From positions 1 to 53,689 of the forward strand of contig QUFC01000030.1 in the NCBI GenBank assembly GCA_003478355.1: 53,689 bases of DNA, written 5' to 3'. Source of the stretch: Lachnospiraceae bacterium AM48-27BH. Its GTDB lineage: Bacteria > Bacillota > Clostridia > Lachnospirales > Lachnospiraceae. The first letter of the stretch is position 1. Each line of letters opens with the position of its first letter. The translations under genes and the position numbers were made by a program. The notes under the pieces are model-generated. The model worked only from the letters and a program-made list of their open reading frames with translations. It was not told where the DNA came from and did not search any database. Shown in pieces: positions 631 through 52,268 of the stretch.

Positions 631-632
631 AA

Positions 633-3189: not shown

Positions 3190-3205
3190 AATCCCTATTT
3201 TTTCT

Positions 3206-3981: not shown

Positions 3982-3986
3982 ATTCC

Positions 3987-4973: not shown

Positions 4974-4991
4974 AGCTTAACCCTTTCGTCC

Positions 4992-5926: not shown

Positions 5927-5939
5927 TGTGATTTTCCTT

Positions 5940-16473: not shown

Positions 16474-16481
16474 TGTTACCT

Positions 16482-16510
16482 GCAGCCCGAATGTGGCTGC
16501 TTTTCTTTTT
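16482..16510 (+). terminator. Intrinsic terminator after virB4
   Basis: A six-bp GC-rich stem (16482-16487 with 16495-16500), a seven-base loop and a T-run. It lies between the VirB4 fusion and the adhesin gene, so the adhesin is partly insulated or under read-through control. Confidence 0.85.
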
Positions 16511-16527
16511 AACAAAGGAGGAGATTT

Positions 16528-20511: not shown

Positions 20512-20531
20512 CTATCAATAGATATGCTCAC

Positions 20532-20553
20532 AGGCAGCTTATTACGGCTGCCT
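20532..20553 (+). other. Short GC-rich hairpin after the adhesin gene
   Basis: A seven-bp inverted repeat (20532-20538 with 20547-20553) around an eight-base loop. No proper T-run follows, so termination would be weak. It may stabilise the adhesin mRNA end or modulate the downstream genes. Confidence 0.45.
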
Positions 20554-20571
20554 GCTATAAAGGTGATGAAT

Positions 20572-20934
20572 ATGGAACAATCTCGTTGTAATGCCGATGC
20601 CAAACACATCCGGCATTTTTTAGATATTTGTGATGGAAATTGGCATTCCTGTATTTATGTTCGCTGTGTTTCCTGTAAAACCCCAGGTTATTGTAATGGC
20701 CCACACTTCTTATATCATCCAGATGAAAACGGCAGTCCATGTGTCCTGCCCATGGCAGATGCCCGTATGCTCTTCTCCCGCATACCGGAACCAACGGAAT
20801 GTCTATCCGCCATAACACTGGAACAATTTCAGTCTTTATATGGACTCTACTTTGCAAAAGAAGCATTGACCGATAAGCCATGTCCTTGTTTTGCTTTACT
20901 GCGGCACCAGGAAGCATCTCATTATCACTGGTAA
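20572..20934 (+). CDS. Small Cys-rich hypothetical ICE protein
   Basis: A 120-residue protein with several Cys and His residues (CVSCKTPGYCNGPHF and CPCF), suggesting metal binding, but no family I can name. The start is ATG 20572 after AAAGGTG; ATG 20566 is the alternative. It follows the adhesin in the same direction. No function is proposed. Confidence 0.55.
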   Translation: MEQSRCNADAKHIRHFLDICDGNWHSCIYVRCVSCKTPGYCNGPHFLYHPDENGSPCVLPMADARMLFSRIPEPTECLSAITLEQFQSLYGLYFAKEALTDKPCPCFALLRHQEASHYHW

Positions 20935-20987
20935 AAGGTTGCACTTTTGGCACTTTCTGCGTACAGGATAAGAAAGGAGGCGATTTT

Positions 20988-21257
20988 ATGTTGAATTTCA
21001 CTGCTATGATTCAAGGAATCGATACAATATTTACGAACTTTATTTTTATTCCTGCACTTTTAATCCTGTACCTGAAGTTTCGTCCGAGAAAGCCCTGGAA
21101 CAAACGCACCAGAAATCTGTATCGGCTATGTATAGCTCTGATTTCTGTTTATGTCATCCGGATTTTCTGTGCAGGGTTCATCTTTACACCAGTAAATTAC
21201 TCACGTTTTGCAGACAGCGGTTTCTTTCCGCTTATCAAGGCACTGTTCTATTCTTAG
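20988..21257 (+). CDS. Small membrane protein, unknown
   Basis: An 89-residue protein with two hydrophobic helices (about 12-28 and 45-66) separated by a basic RPRKPWNKRTR segment. The start at 20988 is set by GAAAGGAGG. It sits in the transfer region with the same orientation. No known motif. A short noncoding gap follows before the zinc-finger gene. Confidence 0.55.
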   Translation: MLNFTAMIQGIDTIFTNFIFIPALLILYLKFRPRKPWNKRTRNLYRLCIALISVYVIRIFCAGFIFTPVNYSRFADSGFFPLIKALFYS

Positions 21258-21380
21258 ATTTTCTGCCATTTTGTGCCATTTAGTCCGAATCTGGGAGTAG
21301 TTTCTATGCCCATCCTATGGGAATTCATCACCTGCTTTCTTACAATATACGTATAAAACACGTAAGCGAGGTGAATCTTT

Positions 21381-21791
21381 ATGAAACAGAAACAAATCCG
21401 CTGCCCATACTGCGGCAGCATCGCAATTTTAAGGGATGCGTCCTATGTATATGGAAATAAAGCGAAAGATGGAAAACTCTATGTGTGCAGTCACTTCCCA
21501 CAGTGTAATTCTTATGTAGGAGTTCATCCTGGCACTACCAATGCCAAAGGAAAACTGGCAAACAAAGAGCTTCGGCAAAAAAGGATCCAAGCACACCGGG
21601 TATTTGACCAGATATGGCTAAACCACATCTTTACGAAATCGGAGGCTTACCGCTGGATTGCTGATAAATTCTGTCTGACTGCCAAGGAAGCACACATCGG
21701 AGAATTTAGCACTTATATGTGTGATCAACTAATTCTGGAATCCATGAAGATTCTGGAGAATAACCATATCCCTCTCAGGGCCATTGGTTGA
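21381..21791 (+). CDS. Zinc-finger-containing protein (DUF3268-like)
   Basis: A 136-residue protein with an N-terminal zinc ribbon made from CPYCGS and CSHFPQC, followed by a helical region. It resembles the zinc-finger proteins regularly found with ICE sigma-like factors. It starts at ATG 21381 after GCGAGGTG and ends four bases into the upstream frame of the sigma-like gene. A role in nucleic acid binding is likely; more cannot be said. Confidence 0.7.
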   Translation: MKQKQIRCPYCGSIAILRDASYVYGNKAKDGKLYVCSHFPQCNSYVGVHPGTTNAKGKLANKELRQKRIQAHRVFDQIWLNHIFTKSEAYRWIADKFCLTAKEAHIGEFSTYMCDQLILESMKILENNHIPLRAIG

Positions 21792-21805
21792 AAGGGGGGA
21801 TATGT

Positions 21806-22375
21806 ATGATCATCCCGATGACAGATGATGAACGCCGATTGACAGAGGAGTACTTATATTTGGTACCTGAAATGGTAAAAAAATTGACTTCCCGTTGTGC
21901 TTATGTCTCATACGATGAGCAGCAAGACCTTCTGCAAGCCGGAAACTTAGCTTTATGCAAAGCCGCCATGAACTATGACAACACCCGTCCCTTTGCAGTT
22001 TACGCCAAAGTTGCCATACGAAATGCCATTTACAGTTATTGGAGAAAACTGCAAAAAGAACGAAAATACACCTGTTCCATGTATGCATCTTCCGAATTTG
22101 ACATGGAACCCCTGCTTGTAGACCAAAAAACCGAACTATGGCAGGAACAATGTATGAACCAGGAACCCATTTATAAGCACCTGCAGTCCTTAGAAGCGAG
22201 AAGCTGCAATACACTAAGAAAAGGAATACATGCCCTGCTCCTGCAGCAAAAAGGATATACCAACCAAGAAATTTCCAAACATTATGGTGTCCCAATGAAT
22301 CATGTCCGGGCATGGCAAAGCAAAGCCCGGAAATACTTACAGCAGGATACCAAATTATATACTCTTTTATCTTGA
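21806..22375 (+). CDS. Sigma-70-like RNA polymerase factor of the ICE
   Basis: A 189-residue protein with a region-2-like part (EQQDLLQAGNLALCKAAMNYD and FAVYAKVAIRNAIYSYWRK) and a C-terminal helix-turn-helix (YTNQEISKHYGVPMNHVRAWQSKAR). The DLLQ, AIR and YW motifs are those of sigma region 2, which binds core polymerase and the -10 element. The start at 21806 follows AAAGGGGGG. It probably directs transcription of transfer genes or regulates ICE timing. Its own promoter target is unknown. Confidence 0.83.
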   Translation: MIIPMTDDERRLTEEYLYLVPEMVKKLTSRCAYVSYDEQQDLLQAGNLALCKAAMNYDNTRPFAVYAKVAIRNAIYSYWRKLQKERKYTCSMYASSEFDMEPLLVDQKTELWQEQCMNQEPIYKHLQSLEARSCNTLRKGIHALLLQQKGYTNQEISKHYGVPMNHVRAWQSKARKYLQQDTKLYTLLS

Positions 22376-22388
22376 AGGGAGAACGATT

Positions 22389-23075
22389 ATGCTGACACTT
22401 TATACTGCAGTCGGAATCCTACGATTCCAGGATTCCATAAAGGAACATAAAACACCGACTGTTATCAATAACCGGCAGGAATACGGACTGACAGAAGAAG
22501 AATTCTTTCTGTGGAGCAGCCTCGCATTTCAAATCCGACAGATCCATGAATTGCAGTCTGCTTTTTCCGAACGCTTGAAAAAACATCACCGTTCGGAAAA
22601 TATCCCCATTGAACCTTACCTGAATCGGCTGCTGCTTCGAGGACTGGTTGTAAAAGGGGATGGTTTAACTGGTGTGGATGCCCTGTACCGCCTCTTAGGA
22701 GAACTTTATATCAGCCCATTGCAGGACAGTTTTTCAGTACGGCTTTTTACCTGCATCTATCTCTGCATGAAGAAAAAACTGCACACAAAGGAACTGATCC
22801 ATTATCTAAAAAAGCCGGCACGGACTGCTATAGAGGACACGGTACTCCAAATAGCAAAAAAAGTACAGATTTCTACGGCAGAGCTTGTAACCTGTGTAGA
22901 ACAGGGCATCCATCCACAAAATACAGAGCAACTTTTGACGCAGCTCTATGAAACCTCGGATGCAACATTCCGTACCCTGGCACAGGATATCCAATTCACC
23001 CATGCCGGTTATCCTGTACTGGAAGCCATCAGTAATTTGTACCTCAATAAACAGATTGCATTTGAAAAATTATAG
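22389..23075 (+). CDS. Hypothetical ICE protein, possibly regulatory
   Basis: A 228-residue, mainly helical soluble protein with no catalytic motif I recognise. The start at 22389 follows GAAGGGAG. It directly follows the sigma-like factor (13-base gap) and precedes a small membrane protein (13-base gap), so all three form one operon. A partner or antagonist of the sigma-like factor is a reasonable guess from position, not from sequence. Confidence 0.6.
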   Translation: MLTLYTAVGILRFQDSIKEHKTPTVINNRQEYGLTEEEFFLWSSLAFQIRQIHELQSAFSERLKKHHRSENIPIEPYLNRLLLRGLVVKGDGLTGVDALYRLLGELYISPLQDSFSVRLFTCIYLCMKKKLHTKELIHYLKKPARTAIEDTVLQIAKKVQISTAELVTCVEQGIHPQNTEQLLTQLYETSDATFRTLAQDIQFTHAGYPVLEAISNLYLNKQIAFEKL

Positions 23076-23088
23076 GAAGGAGCAAATT

Positions 23089-23529
23089 ATGCCAAAACCA
23101 TTTCTTAATAAGCTGATTGTCCATGGGGCAATCGGCTTTTTCTGTGTCCTATTTGGATGTATTTACGGATTTATAACAGACGACCAGATATTTCTCCTTA
23201 TGAGTCTTTGCATCGGTGTTGGAACTGCCATACGAATTGTGAGTCTGCTACATACCATCAAGATGCATGACTATACCGAATTAACTGGAACCTGTACAAA
23301 ACGTGAAGTCAGCCCACTTACCAAGAAACAGAAAATTATTTTCCGTTCCACTGACCAGAAAGAATATCACTTTACATTCGATAAAAATATCCGCCTTTTA
23401 TCTGGACATTATTATCGCCTATATTTCCGGAATGTAGCAAACCTTTCGGGTGAAGAAAAGGTTACTCCGGATTTACTTGCGTATGAGGAATTATCCCTAA
23501 ATGAAGATGTTTCCCCGAAGAACTCTTAG
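23089..23529 (+). CDS. Two-helix membrane protein, unknown
   Basis: A 146-residue protein with two N-terminal membrane helices (about 9-29 and 33-55) and a beta-rich cytoplasmic or extracellular domain (about 60-130). The start at 23089 is preceded by AGGAAGGAG. It is the last gene of this backbone operon before the AT-rich RiPP cassette. No family recognised. Confidence 0.6.
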   Translation: MPKPFLNKLIVHGAIGFFCVLFGCIYGFITDDQIFLLMSLCIGVGTAIRIVSLLHTIKMHDYTELTGTCTKREVSPLTKKQKIIFRSTDQKEYHFTFDKNIRLLSGHYYRLYFRNVANLSGEEKVTPDLLAYEELSLNEDVSPKNS

Positions 23530-23546
23530 ATTTCTTCTCTAAATAC

Positions 23547-23587
23547 AATAGAAGTGGATATGCCACTTTCACATACCCACTTCTATT
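23547..23587 (+). terminator. Hairpin terminating the backbone operon
   Basis: An 11-bp perfect inverted repeat (23547-23557 with 23577-23587). The T-run after it is poor, so it may be a weak terminator. It marks the left border of the RiPP cassette. Confidence 0.55.
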
Positions 23588-23806
23588 ATGCTTTATAAGT
23601 TTTCCTTCTGCCGTCCCAGTGAAATGACAAAAACCACTCCGAACTACCACGTATTCTGTCTCAAGGATGACAGCATAACAGCAATCGCAGGGAATAATAA
23701 TCTATTGTATTCCAGAAGACTCTTCAAAAAATGGACAGTGCTTTCACTTTCAGGGTTTCAAAATGCAGTAACAATATCTTTTATTTTTCTACTGTGACCA
23801 ATTTTT
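23588..23806. other. Intergenic border of the RiPP cassette with a coding-like remnant
   Basis: No convincing gene. On the minus strand around 23640-23670 a short frame reads EYVVVRSG. A similar EYVVVRS stretch lies at the other border near 30720, and the DNA differences fall mostly at third codon positions. This suggests two copies of the same former gene flanking the cassette. The downstream part up to the kinase stop shows nothing. Confidence 0.35.
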
Positions 23807-24688
23807 TCATATTAAGGGCAACTTTATACTGACAGTGAAAATTCCCGCTTCATAATTCACTTGAATATCACCACTTATTTGTATTACTAGCTTTCTAGTA
23901 GCATACAATCCGATACCACTGCTTTTTATCCTTGCTTCATCTTTTGTGTAAAACAAATCAAATATAGATTTTAATTCTTCATCACTAATATAATCAGAAG
24001 GATTGCTTATTTGTATATGACAATACTCGGATTCTCCCCACATGTAAAACATTATATCACCAGTACTATACTTTAAAGCATTATCTATTAAATTACATAA
24101 AATTCTAATTAATATTTTCTCTTGAGCAAGTATCCAAATGTTTCCATGTGGCAGTCTAATATCTAATTGTTCTGAGGCACGTTTTGAATTTTGAATATAT
24201 TCCTTTAACAAAGAAGTGACTACCTCTGTAATATTGACTGATTTCATATCAACTTCGCTCTCTATTGCTTCACTCCAAAACAATAAATATAAATCGTCTA
24301 CTAATTTTTTTAAATAATCCGCCTTTTTTTCAATATGTTCTATATAGCTATTAACAGGTTCATTCACATTTTTTTCTAATCTAATTAACTGCAAGTAACC
24401 AATAATAACAGTTAATGGAGTACGTAAATCGTGTGATAAATTTGCTACCATCTTTTTAAAATTTTTATCCTGTTTTTTTAGCTGATGTTCTTTTCGTTCA
24501 TCTTCTTTAATTCGCTTGTTGATACTAAGTGCAAGGTTCTCAATATCTTTATCCAATACATTGACCGAGTAGATATGCTCATTATGTTCTATCCATTCTA
24601 TAATTCTTCTAATTTCCCTCTTCAGATGAAAAATGTATAATATGCCTAATAATATAAACACTCCTGTTATTAAAAAGACAACTAGCAA
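23807..24688 (-). CDS. Sensor histidine kinase of the RiPP cassette
   Basis: A 293-residue kinase with one N-terminal membrane helix (1-20) and no extracellular sensor loop, as in intramembrane-sensing kinases linked to peptide antibiotic transporters. It has the H-box NLSHDLRTPLT with His86, the N-box NLIDNALKYS and a G-box in SSGIGLYATRKLV. The start is TTG 24688 after AAGGAG. It is 13 bases behind the exporter gene. Its likely partner is the response regulator at 29800-30473 at the other end of the cassette. It would sense the peptide or cell-envelope stress. Confidence 0.9.
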   Translation of the reverse strand: MLVVFLITGVFILLGILYIFHLKREIRRIIEWIEHNEHIYSVNVLDKDIENLALSINKRIKEDERKEHQLKKQDKNFKKMVANLSHDLRTPLTVIIGYLQLIRLEKNVNEPVNSYIEHIEKKADYLKKLVDDLYLLFWSEAIESEVDMKSVNITEVVTSLLKEYIQNSKRASEQLDIRLPHGNIWILAQEKILIRILCNLIDNALKYSTGDIMFYMWGESEYCHIQISNPSDYISDEELKSIFDLFYTKDEARIKSSGIGLYATRKLVIQISGDIQVNYEAGIFTVSIKLPLI

Positions 24689-24701
24689 ACTTCATATCTC
24701 C

Positions 24702-26303
24702 TTATAATATTAGAATCTCATCACATGTATTCAAGATTGCATTATCATGTGAAACAATAATAATTATTTTATGATTTTTAATTTGATCGATCAACTGTAA
24801 AAATTGTTTTTTTCCACTCTCATCCATAGCTGAGGTAGGCTCATCAAAAATCATTACCTGACCGTCTTGCACTACTTGGCGAATAATTGCAATTTTTTGC
24901 TTTTCTCCACCGGAAATATTACTTGACTTTTCATTAATTTGCAAATCCCAATTATCTCTTTTCAAAATACTATCACCAAAGCAATCAACGGCTCTCTGTA
25001 TACATTTTACATCAAGCTTTCGATATAAAGCAATATTATTATATATTGTATCTGCTATTAAAGTCGGCTCCTGTTCTGTTACACTGATTACATGTTCTCT
25101 TATATAATCCATATCTAAATTTCTCATTTCTGTATCGTTCCATATTATATTCCCTTGATATTCATCTACATACATACCCATTAAAATTTTAATAAGTGTA
25201 CTTTTCCCACATCCGTTTTCTCCTTTCAATCCATAAACTTTCCCCTTTTTTAAGTTTGTAGAAAAACTTTTTATGGTTTCTTTCTGGTCATATGCAAAAT
25301 TCAAATCCTGAATTCTAATTTGTTTGATTTCATTAAGTCTTATACACCCCTTAGACTGCTCCTTAATTTCTAAAATAGATTTTATACGTTCAAAGGATAC
25401 ATAAGCCTCTTGGTATTCTTGACCGTATGCCACTATTTCTTTTCCATATTCCAAAATCATATTAAAATATACTGAAATCATATAGAAATATCCTATTTGC
25501 ATATCTCCAGTAAGTATCTTTTTTCCTCCAATCCAAAGTAAAATGCATACAGATATTGCCCCTACAATCCCTTCAAGATTTGCAAATGCCTGGATAGTCG
25601 CTTGTTGTTTAAATATAGATCGATATAATTTTTGATATGATGCTACTAACCTATTTGAAAAAAATGAATCCATACTATGTATTTTTATAAACTCTATTTT
25701 TTCTAATTGTTCCTGCAGTCTGGAGAAGAAATTGGATTTCTCCTCTTTCATTCCATAACTGCAATTATAAATACGCTTTTTGAAGCCAATATATATAAAA
25801 AAATAAAGTGCTAATAAAAACATTGTAACTATAAAAGCAATCGAATCCATTTTCCAAATCATAAATAAGATTATACCCGCTGAAAAAACTGAAAATATCA
25901 ATTCAGTCAAGGAGCTGATGAAAAAAATAAGTACATCATTCGCATCATTGTTTATCCTTTGAGATAAGTACGATAAATCAGTTCTGCCAATTACGAGTGG
26001 CGAAACTTTTTTTAAATGATTTACAATTTCGAAATTTAATGAAAATGCTGCATTAGTCTGTATCCTTATATAAAGTATTTTATTGACATAGCAGACAATT
26101 TCCTTACCAACATACAATAACAGTAATAAAAATATGAATTTTAACATTGCTGAATATGTTGTTTCCACATTAAACATATTAATAAATTGTCCCATAGCAG
26201 CCGGTATAAATGTATTTAACCCGCACAGTATAATACCCAACAAAAAATATATCCCATATTCTATTTTATATTGAAAAACATATTTACTGCAAAATTTTAT
26301 CAT
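24702..26303 (-). CDS. ABC exporter (fused permease and ATPase) for the RiPP
   Basis: A 533-residue half-transporter with about six N-terminal membrane helices and a C-terminal ATPase: Walker A GENGCGKST near 362, signature NISGGEKQK and Walker B VMIFDEPTSAMD. It lacks an N-terminal C39 peptidase domain, so any leader must be removed by another enzyme, or the precursor is exported whole. It lies between the radical SAM maturase (19-base gap) and the kinase. The start at 26303 follows GGGAG. Peptide export is inferred from context. Confidence 0.92.
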   Translation of the reverse strand: MIKFCSKYVFQYKIEYGIYFLLGIILCGLNTFIPAAMGQFINMFNVETTYSAMLKFIFLLLLLYVGKEIVCYVNKILYIRIQTNAAFSLNFEIVNHLKKVSPLVIGRTDLSYLSQRINNDANDVLIFFISSLTELIFSVFSAGIILFMIWKMDSIAFIVTMFLLALYFFIYIGFKKRIYNCSYGMKEEKSNFFSRLQEQLEKIEFIKIHSMDSFFSNRLVASYQKLYRSIFKQQATIQAFANLEGIVGAISVCILLWIGGKKILTGDMQIGYFYMISVYFNMILEYGKEIVAYGQEYQEAYVSFERIKSILEIKEQSKGCIRLNEIKQIRIQDLNFAYDQKETIKSFSTNLKKGKVYGLKGENGCGKSTLIKILMGMYVDEYQGNIIWNDTEMRNLDMDYIREHVISVTEQEPTLIADTIYNNIALYRKLDVKCIQRAVDCFGDSILKRDNWDLQINEKSSNISGGEKQKIAIIRQVVQDGQVMIFDEPTSAMDESGKKQFLQLIDQIKNHKIIIIVSHDNAILNTCDEILIL

Positions 26304-26322
26304 TCCAATTCTCCCTGCTATT

Positions 26323-27525
26323 TCATTGAGCCATTTCTTTCATCAGCTCCAACATCTCTTCTGCATTCCATTTTACTGAAGAACAAATCTTATTTTTATA
26401 AGCAGCACACCCACCATAACATACTGGAAAAAATGAACAATCTTTACATTCTTGATCCTTTACAACATCATAGGAAAGCCATTCTACAAATTTATTTGTA
26501 AGTTTGATTCCTTTTTCCAAATTACCGATACTTCGTTCACTATATCCAATATCATTCCAACATTTATACAACGCTCCATCTGGACCTATCACAAATGAAT
26601 TTAAGCTAATTGCTCCACATACACCATAATTGCTCGGCTTAACACCTTGGTACATAAAGCCTCTCTTAATCCCTTCTTTATAAAACGCAATCTCTTCTTT
26701 TGCGTACTGTGGTCGTTCCATACATATATGATTATTACATACTCCATTAATATCATCTACTGGTGCTAAATAATAACCAACTCTACCTTTTAAACCATAT
26801 CTTTCTAGCCAATCAAATATTTCTGTTGCTTCGTTTATATTTGTCTTGTCAACATTAATTCTTATCGAAATATTCAAAATATCCGCACATTCTCTTATAT
26901 TGTCCAATATATGTTCGAAGGTAGGCTGATGATTATGGAGAATCCTTCTACTATCATGGGCTTGTTTTGAACCATCTAAAGTAACTTGAATATAGTGGAT
27001 GTCCATGTCTTTTAATTTTTCAGCTACTCTTCTAGTCAATTTATAACCATTTGTGACCATATCCGCATTATATTTGCAACCAAGTGGCAAAACAGACTTT
27101 ATCTTTTTGGTTAATTTTTCAATAGTTTCAATTGCCAATAATGGCTCCCCTCCATACCAAGATACCGTTAATTCATGTATATGCTGATATTTTTCTTTGA
27201 GCTGCGATGTTAATTGATCCTGAACAGTCTCAGACATAGTAATATATTCTCTCCCTTTTTCATAGCAATAGGGACAACAAAAATTACATGCCATAGTTGG
27301 GGCAATAGTTAATGTAAGATTTGAATCCGCAAACCTTTCTATTTTATTTCTTATAAGCAATTCTGCAAATTCATCTTTATCATCTTCAACTAGCATACCA
27401 CCCTCTAATAATGCTGACTCTAAATCAGGCTTTGAACATTTTTTCCCTTCTTTCATTTCATAATATGATTTTTCATAATCAGTATCTAATTCCAGTATTG
27501 CAGATGTGACCGTATTGTAAATCAA
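26323..27525 (-). CDS. Radical SAM/SPASM peptide maturase
   Basis: A 400-residue radical SAM enzyme. The [4Fe-4S] motif CxxxCxxC is Cys80, Cys84 and Cys87 in MACNFCCPYCYEK. SWYGGEPLL is the SAM-binding GGE motif. The C-terminal SPASM region has Cys in VCGAISLN, YKCWNDIG and CKDCSFFPVCYGGC, for auxiliary clusters. Such enzymes form thioether or C-C links in RiPPs. As sequenced it opens at TTG 27525 without a ribosome site. A better start, ATG 27573 behind AGAGGA, is in frame but meets TGA at codon 3 (27565-27567), after which 13 sensible codons continue. A T-to-G change from TTA would explain it. It lies downstream of the 35-residue peptide gene. Confidence 0.93.
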   Translation of the reverse strand: MIYNTVTSAILELDTDYEKSYYEMKEGKKCSKPDLESALLEGGMLVEDDKDEFAELLIRNKIERFADSNLTLTIAPTMACNFCCPYCYEKGREYITMSETVQDQLTSQLKEKYQHIHELTVSWYGGEPLLAIETIEKLTKKIKSVLPLGCKYNADMVTNGYKLTRRVAEKLKDMDIHYIQVTLDGSKQAHDSRRILHNHQPTFEHILDNIRECADILNISIRINVDKTNINEATEIFDWLERYGLKGRVGYYLAPVDDINGVCNNHICMERPQYAKEEIAFYKEGIKRGFMYQGVKPSNYGVCGAISLNSFVIGPDGALYKCWNDIGYSERSIGNLEKGIKLTNKFVEWLSYDVVKDQECKDCSFFPVCYGGCAAYKNKICSSVKWNAEEMLELMKEMAQ

Positions 27526-27626
27526 ACAACTTTTATCTTCTTTTTTCTCTATATTGTATCTTGATCATTTCATTATTATATCCTCTTTTCTTAATCTCTT
27601 GTTTTCACAGTGTTCTTTGCAATAAT

Positions 27627-27661
27627 GAAAATGTGCCCAGCATATTGCTGAGCACATTTTC
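27627..27661 (-). terminator. Strong hairpin between the peptide gene and the maturase
   Basis: A 16-bp stem (27627-27642 with 27646-27661) with a three-base loop; the single non-Watson-Crick pair is G-U on the minus strand. A moderately T-rich stretch follows on that strand. Such partial terminators behind precursor genes let the peptide be made in excess of its enzyme. Confidence 0.75.
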
Positions 27662-27682
27662 CTTTACTGACTACAAATATCT

Positions 27683-27790
27683 TTAGTAACGAATTACACA
27701 TGTAGCCTTTTTAGATCCACAACCTTTATCATTGTAAACCCAGCAGATTCTTGTACTTTTGTCCTCTGATGCTTTGTTAATCCACTTCAT
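27683..27790 (-). CDS. Candidate RiPP precursor peptide, 35 residues, three Cys
   Basis: A tiny gene starting at ATG 27790, eight bases after GGAGG, the strongest ribosome site in this block. The peptide has a charged N-terminal part (MKWINKASEDKSTR, 1-14) and a core-like C-terminal part with Cys16, Cys24 and Cys31, rich in Gly, Lys and aromatic residues (ICWVYNDKGCG, ATCVIRY). Cys are spaced eight and seven residues apart. It sits between the immunity-type ABC permease and the radical SAM gene, with a strong hairpin after it. I infer it is the substrate of the maturase, giving a sactipeptide or ranthipeptide-like product. It matches no precursor I know. Confidence 0.8.
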   Translation of the reverse strand: MKWINKASEDKSTRICWVYNDKGCGSKKATCVIRY

Positions 27791-27853
27791 TGCAATATCC
27801 TCCTGTAAAATATTTATTTATTTCAAAGTAGTAAGAGCTACTTGAAACACAAA

Positions 27854-28663
27854 TTAAAGTTCTTGACGTTTCAATGCAAAATGCATTAAAACTATCCCCA
27901 CCAGGCACGCACCCATACCATACATAATAGTTCCAACAACAATCCCATTTGTCATCCGATATCCACAAATATTATACATATAAGTGGTCGGGTTCATAAC
28001 ACAAAATGCTTTAAGAAGCACTGATTGATTTTGAAAATTCTCATATACCATAGGATAAGTAATCGCACCTGCAAAGAAATATACACATGATAAAGCTGCC
28101 ACAATTCCTGTATTCTTTACTAAAACCGTAATCAAAACCGCCACAGCTTCCATTCCAATCATAGCTATCATATTTAAGGTAACCATTCCGATAAAAATCA
28201 AAAATTCCTCACCTTTATAATGAAAACCATACTTCCATGCTAATCCTAAGCCTAATGCAGTTTCCACAATATAATAGAGAATAAAAAAGTGAACATTTAT
28301 CACCAGTAATTTACTTAAAAATAATTTGGTTCGATTTATCCCATATACGACAGAAGCTCTTATTGTTCCTTGATGAAATTCTGCAGATACCATTGTCGTA
28401 ATATAGACAATTAATCCAATCCAAGAAAAAAAATTAATTGATAATGCAAATCTTGCGATTTCTGCAGCTTTTACATTATTCATGTCGTCTATGTAGCAAA
28501 TCCAACCAATGCTATCTATATTTCTATAATCACCAAAAGTCATAAACAATGTATCATTTCCCACAACGAACGGTATAAAAAAAATAAATGCCATAAATAC
28601 TAAAACCCACTTCGAGGCTCGCGAATATTTCATTTTATAGTACTCTGCTTTAAGCTGTCTCAT
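27854..28663 (-). CDS. ABC-2 type permease of an immunity-type transporter
   Basis: A 269-residue protein with six membrane segments and the ABC-2 pattern seen in BcrB/LanE-like permeases (FHQGTIRASVVYGINRTKLFLSK after the second helix). It starts at ATG 28663 behind GGAGGTG and overlaps the ATPase gene by 14 bases. Together they resemble self-protection transporters that remove a membrane-active peptide. The precursor peptide gene follows 63 bases downstream. Confidence 0.87.
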   Translation of the reverse strand: MRQLKAEYYKMKYSRASKWVLVFMAFIFFIPFVVGNDTLFMTFGDYRNIDSIGWICYIDDMNNVKAAEIARFALSINFFSWIGLIVYITTMVSAEFHQGTIRASVVYGINRTKLFLSKLLVINVHFFILYYIVETALGLGLAWKYGFHYKGEEFLIFIGMVTLNMIAMIGMEAVAVLITVLVKNTGIVAALSCVYFFAGAITYPMVYENFQNQSVLLKAFCVMNPTTYMYNICGYRMTNGIVVGTIMYGMGACLVGIVLMHFALKRQEL

Positions 28664-29578
28664 TCGATTTCACCTCCGATAATAGATTTGTGTAATACTC
28701 TTCTAAGTCTTCTCCTTCATATCCTATTTTTTCTACACCAACTCCTCCATATACTAATTCTTTTGTTATATCAGAAATATTTTTATTATAACCAAATACC
28801 TTAATCACATTTCTTAAATAAACTTTTATTTGACTTTCTGGATACCTCTCATCTAAAATACAACTAGCCTTTTCCACATTGTCTACTTCGATATGAACAT
28901 GACGACGACATTTCTCATCTAATTCTTTATCTGTAATCTGTTGTAACATTTTTCCATGATGTATAAATCCATATACAGTTGCAAGTTGATGTAACTCTGG
29001 CAAAATATGACTGGATATAAGTATCGTTGTACCATCTTCTTCATTCATATTCTTTAAGACTTCTCGCACATATTTAATTTTGGTTGGATCTAAGCCATTT
29101 ATTGGTTCATCTAAAATTAGCAACTGTGGGCGACCAAGCAATGCAATTGCAATTCCTAATCGCTGTTTCATCCCTAAAGAAAAAGCCTTCACTCTTTTAT
29201 TTCCAGCGTCCTTTAAATCCATTATTTCCAGAACTTCATCAATACTACTTTTCCTGGAATTCCTCGTTGAGTACGCTGGATTTCCAAATTTTGGCGTGCT
29301 GTCATGTCCATATACAAAGCTGGATTTTCAATTAAACATCCTATCTTATTTCTTTCATCTTCAAGATTTTTTTTACCAAATAAACTTATCTCACCTGAAG
29401 TCGGCTTTGTTAGTCCTGTAATAACTTTCATCAGGCTACTTTTTCCTGCACCATTTTCTCCAACCAGTCCATATATCTCGCCCGCTTTTATCGTAAGATT
29501 TACCTGATTAAGTACCATATTTTTTCCGTATGCTTTACAAATATCTTTTGCTTCCAATATTTTTTCGGGTTCTTTCAT
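28650..29578 (-). pseudogene. ABC transporter ATPase (BcrA/LanF-like), one frameshift
   Basis: Two frames together make a standard ABC ATPase. The first part has Walker A VGENGAGKSSLMK, and the second has the signature AFSLGMKQRLGIAIAL, Walker B LLILDEPINGLD and the H-switch ISSHILPEL. They join if the A4 run near 29253 had one more A, giving GIPGKSSIDEVLEIMDLKD and about 309 residues from ATG 29578. The span is one base short of a multiple of three. The start follows GAGGGAAG. Role: energises the ABC-2 permease for peptide immunity. If the lesion is real, the producer would lack protection. Confidence 0.87.
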
Positions 29579-29799
29579 TCTAATCACTTCCCTCGTTTCT
29601 TAAATCCTATAATGATAATGATAATGTCTAATTCTAACATTTCTCTTAAATCAGTTCTTAAATTTCCATAAAATTATAAATTTATCTTTATATTTTCCCA
29701 CTCGCCTATGAAACCTTCAAATTATTTAAAACAGTAACTTGTATGAAATTACAAATCATGTTAGTATTTTTACCATACCTATTACCAAAGGAGTTTATT
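29579..29799. promoter_or_regulatory. Divergent promoter region of the RiPP cassette
   Basis: About 220 AT-rich bases between the divergent ABC ATPase and response regulator genes. It holds a short direct repeat (ATGATA three times near 29610-29627) and several TTAAAT-like words (29645-29670, 29718-29726) that could be regulator sites. I cannot fix -10/-35 boxes with confidence. Confidence 0.4.
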
Positions 29800-30473
29800 A
29801 TGATTGATATATTATTAGTAGAAGATGATAAAGAAATTTGCTTTATTCTTACAGAATTATTAAAAAGAAACCATTACAATGTTTCAGCATATCACAATGG
29901 GATAGAAGCAATTGAAGCTCTTTCCTCTAAAAAATATGATTTAATGTTATTAGATTTGATGCTTCCCGATTGCCTGGTGAAAAATAACTATTTCACCTAA
30001 AAAAACACAACAATTCTATTCCAGTTATTGTTATATCTGCCAAAAATCAGCCTGAGATTCGTATAAACCTTCTCCGATCCGGTGCAGATGATTATATAAC
30101 TAAACCTTTTTATCATGAAGAAGTTCTCGCACGAATAGAAAGTGTTTTGCGCCGTTGCAGCGAAAGTCCCCAAACGGAATATTCCTTTAAAGATATTCGC
30201 ATAAATGTGGATGATCACAAAGTACTTGTAAATAACACAGAGCTTACTCTGACTACTACCGAATATAACCTCTTACAGCTACTAATCAAACATCCAAAAC
30301 AGACTTTTACAAAGGAATCTTTATATCAACTTATTTGGGGAAAAGATTATATTTCAGATGATAATACTCTCAATGTCCATATAAGCAAACTAAGAAAAAA
30401 ACTAGAGCATATAGGAAACCAAGCCCCTTATATCGATACTATATGGGGAATAGGTTATAAATTACACCGTTAG
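29800..30473 (+). pseudogene. OmpR-family response regulator, one frameshift
   Basis: The receiver domain begins MIDILLVEDDKEI, with the phospho-acceptor Asp52 in LMLLDLMLPD. The frame then breaks between 29973 and 29988. It resumes as FHLKKHNNSIPVIVISAK, the conserved Lys in ITKPFYHEEV, and a winged-helix DNA-binding domain ending in DNTLNVHISKLRKKLE and YIDTIWGIGYKLHR. One added base restores about 224 residues; an extra A in TAAC near 29986 also avoids the stop. ATG 29800 follows AAAGGAG. It probably pairs with the kinase at 23807-24688 and controls the cassette. Confidence 0.88.
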
Positions 30474-30486
30474 AATAAATTCACGC

Positions 30487-30528
30487 AAAAAATACCATTA
30501 CAAAGATTAATCTGTAACGGTATTTTTT
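30487..30528. terminator. Bidirectional terminator after the response regulator
   Basis: An inverted repeat with A-run before and T-run after (core 30494-30502 with 30113-type pairing partner 30113 replaced by 30513-30521). It ends the response regulator transcript and closes the cassette on the right. Confidence 0.75.
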
Positions 30529-30544
30529 ACCCTATTCACTTTTT

Positions 30545-30777
30545 TCATACTTTCAAACAACTAGGTATACCCTCAACAATTTTTTCAGGCACAAACACTT
30601 CATTAACTATCACATACGTCCAAGCACCATCTGAGTTATCCGTAGTTTTAGACACTACAATGGCTTAACTTCCACGCAGTATATATTAAATCTACGAATT
30701 ACAAATGCAAAGACACAACTTCGAACCACTACATATTCCTTTCCAAGGTAACGGTGATTGTGGTCTATGAAAATCAT
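30545..30777 (-). pseudogene. Degraded gene fragment at the right border of the RiPP cassette
   Basis: Two overlapping frames on the minus strand look coding. One from ATG 30777 runs to TAG at 30655 (MIFIDHNHRYLGKEYVVVRS, then hydrophobic). The other, 30664-30545, contains TTDNSDGAWTYVIVNEVFVP. They may be one gene broken by a frameshift. The family is not recognised. The EYVVVRS stretch recurs at the left border near 23650, which hints at a duplicated insertion target. Confidence 0.35.
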
Positions 30778-30796
30778 TTGTATTTCAGCTGACCAT

Positions 30797-30836
30797 AAAA
30801 AACACCGTTGCAGATTCACTCCCCCACAACGGCATC
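30797..30836 (-). terminator. Intrinsic terminator of the small coiled-coil gene
   Basis: Stem CCGTTG/CAACGG (30805-30810 with 30827-30832) followed on the minus strand by six T. It lies just beyond the stop of the gene at 30848. Confidence 0.75.
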
Positions 30837-30847
30837 TTTCATTTTTT

Positions 30848-31087
30848 TTATTCGATTTTATCTTCTCCTGTTGCCTTTATAAATCTCATAACCTCATCAA
30901 TGGTTTTCCCAGATGCTACCAAAGCCTTAAACAGCTCATCTTTCTGCTTCTCTTCTATCTCTTTTTGAATCTCTTTTGCTTTATGACGCAGTTCCTTTAA
31001 ATCGGACTCTTTTGTACGAATCTCCTGTTCCACATACTCCAGTTGCTCTTCCAAAGATGTGTTTTCCAGTTTTTTTCGTCTTGCCAT
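30848..31087 (-). CDS. Small coiled-coil protein of the ICE
   Basis: A 79-residue, highly charged protein, almost wholly helical, with heptad-like Leu/Ile spacing from about 10 to 50 and a C-terminal helix FKALVASGKTIDEVMRFIKA. Similar short coiled-coil proteins (DUF4315-like in style) are common in Firmicute ICEs. The start at 31087 has AGGAGG seven bases upstream and a terminator follows, so it is a well-formed stand-alone gene. It points away from the ssb operon. Function unknown. Confidence 0.65.
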   Translation of the reverse strand: MARRKKLENTSLEEQLEYVEQEIRTKESDLKELRHKAKEIQKEIEEKQKDELFKALVASGKTIDEVMRFIKATGEDKIE

Positions 31088-31147
31088 AATGCATCCTCCT
31101 AATAATTTTTCCTCATTCTACCACATTTTATCTACTCTGAAAAGGTA

Positions 31148-31202
31148 GTAGTGTTTTATGAAAATTTTATATCTATTTGGGATTATCCTCATAAAATACT
31201 AC
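31148..31202. repeat. 14-bp inverted repeat in the ssb upstream region
   Basis: GTAGTGTTTTATGA (31148-31161) and TCATAAAATACTAC (31189-31202) are inverted copies with one mismatch, 27 bases apart. It lies between the divergent coiled-coil and ssb genes. No T-run follows, so a protein-binding site or an origin element is more likely than a terminator. Confidence 0.55.
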
Positions 31203-31270
31203 ACTTCCAAGCATTTTGACACAAAAATTATTATTTCGAATCGCAAAATACTATATATGGTATTTTATCA

Positions 31271-31299
31271 TTGACCTTCGCTATATCTTGTGTTACTAT
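31271..31299 (+). promoter_or_regulatory. Promoter of the ssb operon
   Basis: TTGACC (31271-31276), a 17-base spacer and TACTAT (31294-31299). It would start a leader of about 170 bases before ssb. A tract reading ACTATATATGG on its upstream side (near 31249) resembles the ATATATAGT words by the ligA promoter. Confidence 0.65.
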
Positions 31300-31314
31300 G
31301 ATATTGTATTTAAG

Positions 31315-31390
31315 TTTTGTGTTATCCCTTTATAGGGTGTCTGGATACTATCTCCAGTACACATGCAGTTTAAGTTGGAAAATCGTGTCA
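31315..31390 (+). promoter_or_regulatory. Leader element shared with the ligA operon
   Basis: Two conserved words: TTTTGTGTTATCC (31315-31327) and CATGCAGTTTAAGTT followed by GGAAAATCGTGTCA (to 31390). The same words in the same order occur before ligA at 42953-43005. In both places a terminator hairpin follows immediately. This suggests a cis-acting RNA or protein site that controls read-through. Confidence 0.6.
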
Positions 31391-31432
31391 TTATAATGCC
31401 GTTTTATACGGTGCTATAATGGCACTTTTTTT
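31389..31432 (+). terminator. Intrinsic terminator in the ssb leader
   Basis: A stem of about 13 bp (31389-31401 with 31409-31421) containing one mismatch and two wobbles, then GCAC and a run of T. It lies about 50 bases before ssb, so transcription must pass it: an attenuator. Confidence 0.75.
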
Positions 31433-31477
31433 ATTTATCACTATTTTATCGCCCAAAGGGCAGAAAGGAGAATTTTT

Positions 31478-32116
31478 ATGTCATCTATTATCATTGTAAC
31501 AGGAAGGGTAACTGCCGATCCGGTTATGCAACAAGCAAAGAACTCCGGAACTGAATACATCAGTCTGGGGCTTGCTACCAACCAGAGAGGTCAAAACGGA
31601 AAGGAAGAACCCATCTTCTATCAGTGTTACTGCAACAAGTTTCTTGCAGATCGACTGATAAAAGCCGGTGTCAAAAAATCAACGTGTCTCATGGTCTACG
31701 GAGATTTAGAACTCCATCCGTATATTCACCAGAAAGGCAATAATGCAGGTCAAGCAGCTATCACGCCGCAAATTATGGTAAAGGACTGGCAGTTCTTACC
31801 TGCGAATCGTAATGATACCAATGCAGCAACACCTGTACCGGGGAATCCAATGGTCGGAAATCCGAATGTTCCACCAGTACCAGCAAACGGTGCTACTTAT
31901 AATGGAAACCCGGGAATGAATCCTTCCGGTACCGTGCCTACTGGCGCAATGCCAGTCAATAACAATATGATGCCACAGGCCGCACAACAGATGTCTTATG
32001 CTCCGGCAGGGGGATCGGCTTATGCACCACAGGGATTTACGGCTGGCAATGTATCTGGTGATGGATTTACCAATATTCCGGAAAATACACCACCACAGCA
32101 GCTTCCATTCCCGTAA
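31478..32116 (+). CDS. ssb: Single-stranded DNA-binding protein of the ICE
   Basis: A 212-residue SSB. Residues 1-110 form the OB fold (IIIVTGRVTADPV, FYQCYCNKFLADRL, SCLMVYGDLEL-like strand). The rest is a long Pro/Gly/Asn/Met-rich tail. The last residues are LPFP, without the usual acidic DDDLPF tip that recruits repair proteins. Such variants serve element replication and protect single strands after transfer. ATG 31478 follows AAAGGAG. It heads the operon and is preceded by a leader with terminator. A terminator also follows the gene. Confidence 0.9.
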   Translation: MSSIIIVTGRVTADPVMQQAKNSGTEYISLGLATNQRGQNGKEEPIFYQCYCNKFLADRLIKAGVKKSTCLMVYGDLELHPYIHQKGNNAGQAAITPQIMVKDWQFLPANRNDTNAATPVPGNPMVGNPNVPPVPANGATYNGNPGMNPSGTVPTGAMPVNNNMMPQAAQQMSYAPAGGSAYAPQGFTAGNVSGDGFTNIPENTPPQQLPFP

Positions 32117-32138
32117 ATTATCAAAGATCCCTAAAATG

Positions 32139-32187
32139 AAGGAATTGCGACTTTCCAGTATCTACTGGTCTGCTGCAATTCCTTTTT
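32139..32187 (+). terminator. Intrinsic terminator after ssb
   Basis: A 10-bp stem (32139-32148 with 32175-32184) and a T-run. It gives ssb a higher level than the downstream genes. Confidence 0.8.
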
Positions 32188-32215
32188 CTATTGAAACAAA
32201 CATGGAGGAAATGAA

Positions 32216-33001
32216 GTGAATACACAAAAGAAATTTCTTAAAGTTCTAAGTATGCTCACAATAATTTTGTTAATTGCAACTATATTCATACCAGGAAATG
32301 GAAATCGTAATGCAGTCGCAAGTATCGGAATCCTTGGCATCCTGCTGCTATTTCTTTCCACACTTCTTCCTAAAATCTATAAACTGACTCTAAACCTACT
32401 CAAGAACCAGGGCAAAACAAGCCCTTGGTCTTCTTTGAAATCATCTGAGCCAGTTTCCGAAACAGAAGAATTGCTTTGGAGACAAATCAGCTATCAGATT
32501 ACCGACAAACTACAGGCTGCATTTCCAAATGCAACATGGGAATTCCAGAAGCCGCCATCCATGAAGCAGCTTCTTTGCGGAAATCCCATACGTCTGAGAA
32601 CCTTTCATACGGAGGACTACAACTTTGCGGAAGCACGTATGAACCAATACGGATATCTGGAACTTCAAATGCTGACCATTGCCAGCCTCAAAAAGACTGT
32701 CACAGTTACCGATGAGGACGATGTTCCTTTTGCTGATCCGGAATCCTGGTATTCCTTAATTGGCAAGAAAAAACTGGAGAACCTTATCGGACAGCTCCAT
32801 GCGAAAGGACACCATAAACTCTATATTAATGAAAACGGGCAAATTTACATCCAAAATGGTGATACAGCGGAAATCAAGGATTGTTTTGATTATTTCCCGC
32901 CACGAAACTATTGGGATATTCTCATTTCCATCTTCCAAAAAGATGAATTGACCGCAAAAGAAAAGGACCAGGCACTAGAATTATCCTGGATAAAAGAATA
33001 A
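32216..33001 (+). CDS. Membrane-anchored hypothetical ICE protein
   Basis: A 261-residue protein with two N-terminal membrane helices (about 8-27 and 36-53) and a soluble domain of about 180 residues without catalytic motifs. It starts at GTG 32216, seven bases after GGAGG. It stands 13 bases before the MoxR-type ATPase gene, so it is likely a partner in the MoxR-VWA unit. No family recognised. Confidence 0.6.
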   Translation: MNTQKKFLKVLSMLTIILLIATIFIPGNGNRNAVASIGILGILLLFLSTLLPKIYKLTLNLLKNQGKTSPWSSLKSSEPVSETEELLWRQISYQITDKLQAAFPNATWEFQKPPSMKQLLCGNPIRLRTFHTEDYNFAEARMNQYGYLELQMLTIASLKKTVTVTDEDDVPFADPESWYSLIGKKKLENLIGQLHAKGHHKLYINENGQIYIQNGDTAEIKDCFDYFPPRNYWDILISIFQKDELTAKEKDQALELSWIKE

Positions 33002-33014
33002 AGGAGGAAATACT

Positions 33015-34832
33015 ATGCCAAATACAAACTTTGTCCCTAACTGGACTTTTGAAAGAACGCTACCATCTCCATTTGACAGCTATTCCGGGAAAAGTGCAGT
33101 GATGAAAGACATCGCTTCCAAATACTGTAATCAGCCTAAAAAACGGGCTACTCTCCATTCTGCTACTTTGCAGGCAGTTTTTTCTTATATGAATTTGGAA
33201 AATCCACCTGCTGGAAAAGCAGAGGAAGAACTCGGAGCCATTGGAAGCCAGGCAAACAATTTTACAATCGCAGAATATCCAAGCCGTACCGGGTTGCTGC
33301 ATGTAGTGGTCTACAACCGTATGACTGGGAAATTTATAGCCGGAAAGTATGAAAAACCTTTGGATCTGGACAGTAAACCAGAGCCATATCAGTTTAAAAA
33401 AGATGAAGATTCCGGAAGTGCTCTTTATTTTGCTTTAATGCCTACTTTCCTTTCAGATGACGAATTCAATGAAAAATATCAGGAATTAAAGCAACACCGT
33501 GATGACGGTTTTCCTGACCTGCCCAAAGCTGCAGAAACGGCTGCGGTTCTTTGTGATAACGTGTACCGCAGGATCCGTTATGGTGATTCCCTTCCTATCG
33601 GGAACATCAAAGTTGACACTCCTGCAAATGGCGTGCTCCAAAGACTTACACCACTGAATATCCAAAAAGGTGTTTATGCACCAACGGAAATTATCCAGGG
33701 TACCTTTCAGGTATTAAAAGGTGGACATCACTATACTGCTTCCGCCGTTTCAATTCCCAAAGAAGATTTTGTCGATAAATACATCCTGTCCAATTCTCGG
33801 ACATTAACTCCCCAAGAAGAATCAACCGTTCCTATTCTCGAAGATTGGTATGTAATCCCAAAAGAAATCCAAAGAATATGCGAACATGCCAAATTAACAA
33901 CTGACAGCAAGCAACCTATGAGGAATTTTATGCTCCGTGGGCCTGCTGGAACGGGAAAGACCGAAGGTGCCAAAGCCATTGCTGCAGGACTTCACCTGCC
34001 TTACCGATGCATCACCTGCTCGGCAAATACAGAAATTTTTGACCTTCTTGGACAGATTTTACCTGATGTAGATGAAAAACAGCTTTCTTTGGTAGGGGAA
34101 CTGCCCTCTTTTCAAGACATTACCCTCGATCCGGCTACTGCCTATGAAAAATTAACGGGTACTTATGATGAAAAGGTATCAGAAAATACAGTTTATGAAG
34201 AATTGATCCATCATATATCTGAGGAAATGAAGCAGAAACAAGCTGCTACCTCCAGCAGCCAACAGTTCCGCTATGTGGATACACCACTGGTTGAAGCCAT
34301 CCGAAACGGCTATCTGGTAGAAATACAGGAGCCTACGGTGATTGCCAATCCTGGTGTACTGGTAGGACTTAATTCCCTATTGGACCGTTGTAACAGCGTA
34401 TTTCTGCCAAACGGGGAAGTCATCCATCGGCATCCGGATACTACCATTGTAGTCACAACTAATCATGACTATGCCGGCTGTCGTCCCATGAACCAGTCTG
34501 TCATTTCAAGGATGAATATGGTCATAGATATGGATGAACCGGATGAAGAGACCATGGTAGAGCGTGTTCTTGCTATTACCGGATGTTCCGATAAAAAATC
34601 AGTACGTACCATGACACAGATTGTACGTTCCATCGCACAGTATTGTCAGGATAACCTGATAACAGATGGCTGCTGTGGAGTCCGGGAATTAATTGCCTGG
34701 GTTCAGTCTTTTATGGTATGTGGCGATATACAGGAAGCTGCTCATTATACCATTTTATCTTCCGTCACTGCCGATTCTGAAAGCCGTATCGAAATTGAAG
34801 GTTCTTGCTTGGATACAGTTCTTGCATCATAA
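33015..34832 (+). CDS. MoxR-type AAA+ ATPase
   Basis: A 605-residue ATPase. The N-terminal 300 residues are unique to the element. The AAA+ core has Walker A LRGPAGTGKTEGAKAIA (near 310-325), Walker B-like YLVEIQEPTVIANPGVL, sensor 1 TTIVVTTNHDYAG and the arginine finger region SVISRMN. MoxR ATPases act with VWA-domain partners as chaperones that mount cofactors or remodel complexes. Here a VWA protein is encoded two genes on. The start follows AAGGAGG. The actual client in the ICE is unknown. Confidence 0.9.
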   Translation: MPNTNFVPNWTFERTLPSPFDSYSGKSAVMKDIASKYCNQPKKRATLHSATLQAVFSYMNLENPPAGKAEEELGAIGSQANNFTIAEYPSRTGLLHVVVYNRMTGKFIAGKYEKPLDLDSKPEPYQFKKDEDSGSALYFALMPTFLSDDEFNEKYQELKQHRDDGFPDLPKAAETAAVLCDNVYRRIRYGDSLPIGNIKVDTPANGVLQRLTPLNIQKGVYAPTEIIQGTFQVLKGGHHYTASAVSIPKEDFVDKYILSNSRTLTPQEESTVPILEDWYVIPKEIQRICEHAKLTTDSKQPMRNFMLRGPAGTGKTEGAKAIAAGLHLPYRCITCSANTEIFDLLGQILPDVDEKQLSLVGELPSFQDITLDPATAYEKLTGTYDEKVSENTVYEELIHHISEEMKQKQAATSSSQQFRYVDTPLVEAIRNGYLVEIQEPTVIANPGVLVGLNSLLDRCNSVFLPNGEVIHRHPDTTIVVTTNHDYAGCRPMNQSVISRMNMVIDMDEPDEETMVERVLAITGCSDKKSVRTMTQIVRSIAQYCQDNLITDGCCGVRELIAWVQSFMVCGDIQEAAHYTILSSVTADSESRIEIEGSCLDTVLAS

Positions 34833-34839
34833 CACACTA

Positions 34840-35097
34840 TTGAGGAACACCTTTTATACCGAAGCCGAACTACGCAAAACTCTGGCAGAAAATCTCGTTT
34901 ATTTAAGAAAATCCAAGCAGACGAAACTCTCTCAGAAAGCCGTAGCAAGACTTCTGCATCTACCGGAAAAAACAATTATGAACTATGAAAATGGGCATAC
35001 GCTTCCATCTGCTTACGCCGTCTTTCGGTTAGCCCAGTATTACGGCTGTACAATGGAAGATCTCCTAACCCAAAATATGAAAAAGAAAGAAAGGTGA
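34840..35097 (+). CDS. XRE-family helix-turn-helix regulator
   Basis: An 85-residue DNA-binding protein. The helix-turn-helix is LSQKAVARLLHLPEKTIMNYENG, followed by YAVFRLAQYYGCTMEDLL, both typical of phage-repressor-like XRE proteins. The start is uncertain: TTG 34840 lies eight bases after the MoxR stop but lacks a clear ribosome site, so coupling to the upstream gene is likely. The stop overlaps the VWA gene start. It probably autoregulates this operon. Confidence 0.75.
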   Translation: MRNTFYTEAELRKTLAENLVYLRKSKQTKLSQKAVARLLHLPEKTIMNYENGHTLPSAYAVFRLAQYYGCTMEDLLTQNMKKKER

Positions 35098-45632: not shown

Positions 45633-45697
45633 TGAAATGTGGTGAATGCCCCATTTCAAACATCTTTTGCGACTTATTATTTATAATTATTTTACCG

Positions 45698-45726
45698 TTG
45701 GAAAGCACCTTCTTTTTTGATATAAT
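45698..45726 (+). promoter_or_regulatory. Promoter of the DUF3990 module
   Basis: TTGGAA (45698-45703), a 17-base spacer and a perfect TATAAT (45721-45726), 25 bases before the start codon. It lets this pair be expressed apart from ligA, as expected for an accessory toxin-type module. Confidence 0.75.
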
Positions 45727-45751
45727 GAAAGCAAATGGAGGGATAACGTAT

Positions 45752-52226: not shown

Positions 52227-52268
52227 TAGTAACCTCTCCTTTATTGCATATCTTTATAACTTATAAAA

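Follow-up and report, generated by a model that had tools for sequence, protein, structure and literature searches.

A mobile radical SAM/SPASM cassette with a three-cysteine precursor peptide in Lachnospiraceae bacterium AM48-27BH and Blautia

The stretch of DNA analysed here, 53,689 nucleotides of contig QUFC01000030.1 from Lachnospiraceae bacterium AM48-27BH (the window), carries between positions 23807 and 30473 a cassette for a ribosomally synthesized and post-translationally modified peptide (RiPP) whose 35-residue precursor has three cysteines. Judged from its sequence, this is a real, mobile and conserved RiPP cassette; it is of a kind already known but belongs to a branch that has been neither studied nor given a curated name. 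The three-cysteine peptide is very probably made, exported and protected against by the products of the cassette. We think it probable that the whole is a mobile, regulated unit of the bacteriocin type, in which a crosslinked peptide would be exported, freed of its leader outside the cell and tolerated by its producer under two-component control.

The cassette and its precursor peptide

The features of the cassette and the borders of the slot in which it lies are listed below (SAM, S-adenosylmethionine; ABC, ATP-binding cassette; ORF, open reading frame).

22302 to 23075, (+): gene of the element backbone that bounds the cargo slot on the left, present in the related elements L109, L110 and L112
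23807 to 24688, (-): sensor histidine kinase, VanS-like (PF00512, PF02518; NF033091 at 129.7 bits, cut-off 400)
24702 to 26303, (-): ABC exporter with membrane and ATPase domains (PF00664, PF00005)
26323 to 27570, (-): radical SAM/SPASM maturase, codon 3 being a stop, which leaves an ORF of 400 amino acids at 26323 to 27525
27620 to 27682, (-): predicted RNA hairpin in the gap between the precursor and maturase genes, main stem of 16 pairs, without a U-run
27683 to 27790, (-): gene for the 35-amino-acid precursor peptide, an ORF with AGGAGG upstream of its ATG and with 13 homologues
27854 to 28663, (-): ABC-2 type permease, probable immunity protein (PF12679, PF12730)
about 28650 to 29587, (-): ABC ATPase, LanF-type-like, in pieces 28650 to 29222 and 29222 to 29587, each best matched by TIGR03740
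about 29743 to 30473, (+): OmpR/PhoB-type response regulator, receiver piece 29743 to 30000 and DNA-binding piece 30147 to 30473
31478 to 32116, (+): SSB gene (PF00436), right border of the cargo slot, whose content varies in relatives

A first-pass annotation of this DNA had placed the kinase, the exporter, the radical SAM/SPASM gene, the three-cysteine peptide, the ABC pair and the regulator in this span, and all of them were found at those positions. It had also described the two-component system as split, and rightly so, since the kinase and the regulator lie at opposite ends of the cassette and on opposite strands with the regulator divergent. What did not stand was its description of the unit as complete, because the maturase, the ATPase and the regulator of the window are each broken as sequenced. 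In the exporter the Pfam matches over cut-off were ABC_tran and ABC_membrane, AAA_21 was marginal, and no C39 peptidase was found in the Pfam scan.

The precursor, MKWINKASEDKSTRICWVYNDKGCGSKKATCVIRY, is preceded by a good ribosome-binding site and has its cysteines at positions 16, 24 and 31, as had been noted in the first pass. It can be divided into a putative leader of about residues 1 to 14 and a putative core of about residues 15 to 35. It had no NCBIfam match at E <= 1 and no Pfam match at E <= 0.1. A search with its open frame in a database of 5.77 billion proteins found 13 homologues, and therefore the precursor is not a chance ORF. Five of the 13 reach the natural C-terminus (P0121, P0122, P0123, P0125 and P0129), two of these, P0122 and P0129, being clearly divergent, and the remaining eight have altered C-termini and resemble truncated or chimeric reads. 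Compared with the window peptide, P0129 (MTWVNKASNEAGPRICWVYNDKGCGSKKATCVVRY) has 7 differences among the 14 leader residues and 1 among the 21 of the core (Fisher p 0.003). The final 35 residues of P0122 have 3 differences in the leader and none in the core (p 0.056). In both, all three cysteines are kept, as is Arg14 before Ile15-Cys16, and Trp17, Tyr19, Asn20 and Lys28 are unchanged. P0129 is probably adjacent to the maturase P0008, which is 71% identical to that of the window, because both are recorded with a longest contig of 8131 and on 2 contigs. The first-pass annotation had held that its proposal would fail if the peptide were not conserved beside the maturase; divergent homologues do keep the core, and the adjacency of P0129 and P0008 is probable only.

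Candidate precursors beside related maturases were sought by a scan blind to the leader, which covered 34 loci after most Bacteroidales-type loci had been left out and gave 58 candidates from 25 of them. A leader motif was defined after the candidates had been seen: near the N-terminus, a residue that is aromatic or aliphatic is followed by a branched one, two positions and then Pro, Ala, Gly or Ser. It was present in 41 candidates from 21 loci, L027 and L092 being on the same contig so that one locus is counted twice. When the leader of the window peptide, MKWINKA, was compared with short leaders of the form M-x-aromatic-[ILV]-x-x-[PA] ahead of a Cys-bearing core, its score was matched or exceeded by 55 of 7116 background ORFs, by 24 of the 1208 with at least three cysteines and by 694 of 100000 shuffles. 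In Peptostreptococcus porci (L028) two cysteine-rich ORFs with leaders HWIKKP and EWIKET lie beside the maturase. A table of cysteine offsets in the candidates gave no single acceptor rule and was not used.

The hairpin that follows the precursor gene has a minimum free energy of -27.9 as against -10.0 +/- 2.45 for shuffled sequences (z -7.3), and 0 of 200 shuffles were as stable. It is probably an attenuator or a stabiliser. The promoter scan was near chance (45 hits against 43.8 expected), the terminator scan gave 4 against 1.9, and a search of Rfam found nothing at gathering scores.

The maturase and its relatives

Among the best 25 of its 78 NCBIfam matches the maturase scored highest with TIGR04463 (275.7 bits, cut-off 525) and next with the Clo7bot maturase family TIGR04334 (264.8 bits, cut-off 600). 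The intact homologue P0001, whose cluster has 839 member sequences, scored 273.1 and 268.4 bits, respectively, both under cut-off, and in the 10 relatives that were scanned, P0001 included, the same two families came top with every score below both cut-offs. The SPASM domain of the window ORF reached 59.1 bits with TIGR04085, for which the cut-off is 27. All 10 cluster-binding cysteines, those of CX3CX2C and the seven that we take to follow the SPASM pattern, do not vary in any of the 57 aligned maturases, which were picked from 120 listed homologues.

Trees were built with 99 of the 120 listed homologues, fusions and fragments being left out; L065 was dropped too, since it duplicates L028. 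In both trees, one of 156 and one of 167 maturases, the window maturase falls in a clade of about 100 listed relatives, outside the 6-member Clo7bot clade. The support for the window clade is modest, 0.63 in the tree of 167 sequences, and in this tree L077, an annotated TIGR04463 member, joins next (0.98) and Clo7bot after it (0.76). In the tree of 156 sequences both Clo7bot and L077 lie outside the window clade, the backbones of the two trees differ and the deep supports are modest. Among the loci only L028 groups with the window clade (0.63), and it is the only fetched locus other than a Blautia copy with a maturase in that clade; the maturases L084 and L088, which belong to L095 and L099, group with L077. 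Thus this is a branch of about 100 members in the tree, near the TIGR04463 and Clo7bot maturases, in which no curated family cut-off was reached by the 10 members scanned. The first-pass annotation had stated that the peptide fits no precursor class, and this holds in so far as no model matches the peptide; it goes too far in that the maturase is near TIGR04463 and Clo7bot and the leader seems to be broadly of their kind.

The likeness to the TIGR04463 family, maturases found beside C-rich peptides, goes beyond the best score, since the smallest node that holds the window maturase and L077 (support 0.98) excludes Clo7bot, and since leaders of the form W-[IVL]-x-x-[PA] occur at L095, whose maturase L084 is in the L077 node. 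However, the window score is about half the cut-off, and the window precursor is shorter and has only three cysteines. Clo7bot (peptide TIGR04333, maturase TIGR04334, or ctpM) has precursors of similar length with the leader MK[YF][IV]..[PA] and a cysteine at position 16 in all 8 that were aligned. Its maturases nevertheless form a separate clade, its loci L075 and L078 have seven labelled precursors each, mostly with at least four cysteines, whereas the window has one with three, and the window peptide is unmatched by TIGR04333 (cut-off 31 bits), which 5 of 5 scanned peptides of L067 reach. Literature searches covering open-licence PMC papers found no description of the peptide and nothing on Clo7bot or on TIGR04333, TIGR04334 or TIGR04463.

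The fold model of P0001 (pLDDT 92.2) has an RRE-like domain followed by radical SAM and SPASM domains. Residues 1 to 80 of the model form three strands and then helices; in the window ORF the first of these residues are missing owing to the stop codon. Foldseek placed CteB and anSME nearest, chains of CteB (which we take the structures 5why and 5wgg to be) forming the top three matches. CteB has the same domain order and aligns over residues 4 to 413, the N-terminal domain included, at 17 to 19% identity, whereas most structural alignment rows span 79 to 409 only, so that the likeness is less secure for the N-terminal domain. CteB, which is discussed in PMC8326336, is a SCIFF maturase, and the first pass had excluded SCIFF correctly: the precursor has three cysteines in 35 residues instead of six in 45, and TIGR03974 scored 80.5 bits against a cut-off of 425. 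Its exclusion of ruminococcin C also held, because the window peptide is shorter and has fewer cysteines. Like the window system as we read it, ruminococcin C is a RiPP of the gut that undergoes radical SAM maturation, is accompanied by genes for transport and immunity and bears a leader that trypsin cleaves; unlike it, ruminococcin C has, in excerpts of PMC6779426 and PMC8172795, two maturases and five precursors, which are 63 amino acids long with four cysteines in a double hairpin.

The nearest family of familiar chemistry among these best 25 matches was PapB (NF047865), at 132.7 bits against a cut-off of 340. As in the PapB/freyrasin ranthipeptides, a Cys-X3-acceptor spacing is available in the window core (C16-N20, C24-K28 and C31-Y35), but unlike them the core has no Asp or Glu at the +4 positions.

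A search of IMG/VR with the maturase gave one relative, of 29% identity (L074). The closest maturases, 50 to 80% identical, were not found in searches of 61 relatives, of the genome samples of the genus (20), family (397) and class (391), or of those of the order (392, query P0022) and phylum (398, query P0067); all that these searches gave were the copies in Blautia and enzymes further removed. At G001:C23:23165-25265, G001:C20:1448-10950 and G009:C1:215136-227577 there are additional groups of radical SAM/SPASM-like matches, possibly other RiPP clusters.

The proposed pathway and the alternatives

In the pathway that we propose, the leader (about residues 1 to 14) would be bound by the RRE-like domain at the N-terminus of the maturase. 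The radical SAM/SPASM enzyme would then form up to three thioethers between cysteines of the core, ICWVYNDKGCGSKKATCVIRY, and residues close by. Thioethers of this sort run from the cysteine sulfur to an alpha-carbon in sactipeptides and to a carbon other than the alpha-carbon in ranthipeptides. In type I sactipeptides, as parts of PMC13239113 describe them, the cysteines are gathered at the N-terminal side of the core. Since those of the window core are not so gathered and are spread over its whole length, nested hairpins appear less likely and local rings would be easier to form. The ABC exporter would then secrete the modified peptide with its leader still on. Removal of the leader is placed outside the cell because the cassette has no protease gene, and a trypsin-like enzyme could plausibly cut the conserved Arg14-Ile15 bond, in the manner of ruminococcin C, for which passages of PMC6779426 report leader removal that depends on trypsin. 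The ABC-2 permease and the ATPase would protect the producer, the VanS/PhoB-like two-component system would control expression, and the hairpin 3' of the precursor gene would ensure that more peptide than enzyme is made.

If this proposal is true, Blautia of the gut pass among themselves by conjugation a compact antibacterial together with the genes that protect against it and control it. The single small precursor and single enzyme would also make a convenient model for studying what determines the thioether acceptors of SPASM enzymes. Going much further, and with little expectation of being right, one could see here the founder of an unnamed RiPP class: a cationic peptide of 21 residues with three in-line thioether rings of four-residue step (C16-N20, C24-K28 and C31-Y35, the last at the C-terminal residue) and acceptors other than Asp or Glu, activated by gut trypsin and carried as conjugative cargo swapped between Blautia species. 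According to portions of PMC7872077, clusters of the sactipeptide type as detected by antiSMASH are widespread in Blautia, and the window locus may have been flagged in that survey without being described.

Several observations weigh against the bacteriocin-type pathway. The leader of P0129 is not unusual, since 758 of 7116 background ORFs score as high. For the ATPase, TIGR03740 is the best match even in the open homologue of L021, but at 249.2 bits, short of the lantibiotic-protection cut-off of 309.75. P0123, which is 97% identical to the precursor and has 33 member sequences, has Trp in place of Cys16, and it may be that not all three cysteines are essential or that P0123 is an error. The dedicated two-component genes at the cassette ends, and the gene set as a whole, would also fit a peptide signal. 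Finally, three genes are broken in the window itself.

These breaks raise the question whether the cassette of this strain is a dead or dying island, which would be compatible with the proposed pathway for intact copies. The maturase frame runs upstream of the 400-amino-acid ORF, which starts at an internal TTG, to an ATG whose third codon is the stop; the ATPase is frameshifted near 29.25 kb and the response regulator near 29.97 kb. The cassette was compared with copies in B. hansenii MSK.15.26 (L021, on the same contig as L025; 99.9% identity over 16523 to 31156), B. massiliensis GD8 (L026; 99.4% over 22356 to 35517) and G009 (L022; 98.8% over 15855 to 31156), the last counted as Blautia because it has its genus in common with G001. 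None of the three breaks occurs in L021, L022 or L026, where all three genes are open, with ORFs of 444 amino acids for the maturase frame (codons 5' of the likely start included), 312 for the ATPase and 243 for the regulator. Within 16523 to 31156 there are 12 differences between the window and L021, one at 20478 and 11 in 25657 to 30707. Six differences are private to the window with respect to all three relatives; they are clustered in the 2.9 kb of 27566 to 30441 and three of them break genes, and outside it no private differences from L021 and L022 occur in 16523 to 31156. This clustering would suit decay, but the precursor, exporter, permease and kinase genes are open in the window. Moreover, two genes away from the cassette, a UmuC/DinB-like gene at 41510 to 42777 (-) and an NAD-ligase-like gene at 43188 to 45205 (+), are also frameshifted in the window (at about 42.0 and 44.4 kb) and open in G009 (L114), as would be found in error-prone draft sequence; in G001 (L115) the ligase region is without the break, and the UmuC break lies outside the alignment. 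For this reason we judge sequence error to be roughly twice as likely as decay, and we regard a dying island as doubtful.

A second alternative, which we consider unlikely, is that the modified peptide is a signal, that is, an autoinducer sensed by the cassette kinase, perhaps for control of the element or of cell density. Besides the two-component genes, the strong conservation of the core would be in keeping with it. Protection-type ABC pairs are typical of antimicrobial clusters, and the presence of such a pair in the cassette, as well as of other protection-type ABC and two-component genes in the slot of the related element L109, argues against a signal. In favour of one, the review PMC8326336 cites, in its reference list, SCIFF-derived ranthipeptides in quorum sensing.

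It is also unlikely that the maturase installs a change other than a thioether, which could for example be a C-C or ether crosslink that involves Trp17, Tyr19, Lys or Asn, or else an epimerisation; the cysteines would then be free or in disulfides. SPASM enzymes form many kinds of bond, and in P0122 and P0129 Trp17, Tyr19, Asn20 and Lys28 are as unchanged as the cysteines, one of which P0123 lacks. TigE, which is among the nearest solved folds, belongs by its presumed link to TvgB to a type that forms cyclopropylglycine; this chemistry is treated for TvgB in excerpts of PMC9062424. On the other hand, related maturases adjoin peptides that are strongly Cys-rich, and PapB is a thioether enzyme according to passages of PMC9413430.

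Mobile setting and neighbouring genes

The first pass had the cassette inside a conjugative element, and the genes around it agree: TrbL_4 at 9190 to 9900, a TraG/VirB4-type P-loop ATPase at 13294 to 16473 and the SSB gene at 31478 together indicate such an element. The region from 22302 to 31478 is a variable cargo slot and the cassette is one passenger, as the content between the backbone gene at 22302 and SSB differs among related elements (L107, L108, L109, L110 and L112). In L109 (G463) the slot holds other ABC and two-component genes, and in L110 and L112 it holds 2.8 to 3.7 kb without matches to the cassette. L108 (G020) has similar ABC and two-component matches beyond SSB, its left border gene being outside the fetched stretch. 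In G009 about 7 kb separate the cassette from SSB and contain two large ORFs with the motif DKTGTLT, which we take as the mark of P-type ATPases. None of 126 plasmid records and none of 3 phage records had one place covering 80% of the cassette, and the short matches listed fall on ATPase genes where annotated.

Elsewhere in the window, thiamine-salvage type genes (TENA, cytosine/thiamine permease and phosphomethylpyrimidine kinase; three genes were scanned) lie at 40 to 8014 (-) and are perhaps element flank or cargo. A DUF3990/DUF3791 protein, presumably ADP-ribosyltransferase-like, is encoded at 45623 to 46438 (+). At 49629 to 53612 (-) an FtsX-type permease, a thioredoxin-like protein of 219 amino acids with no Pfam match and an ABC ATPase possibly form a secreted-peptide module, and this group gave short weak matches only, in 3 of the 5 genomes searched.

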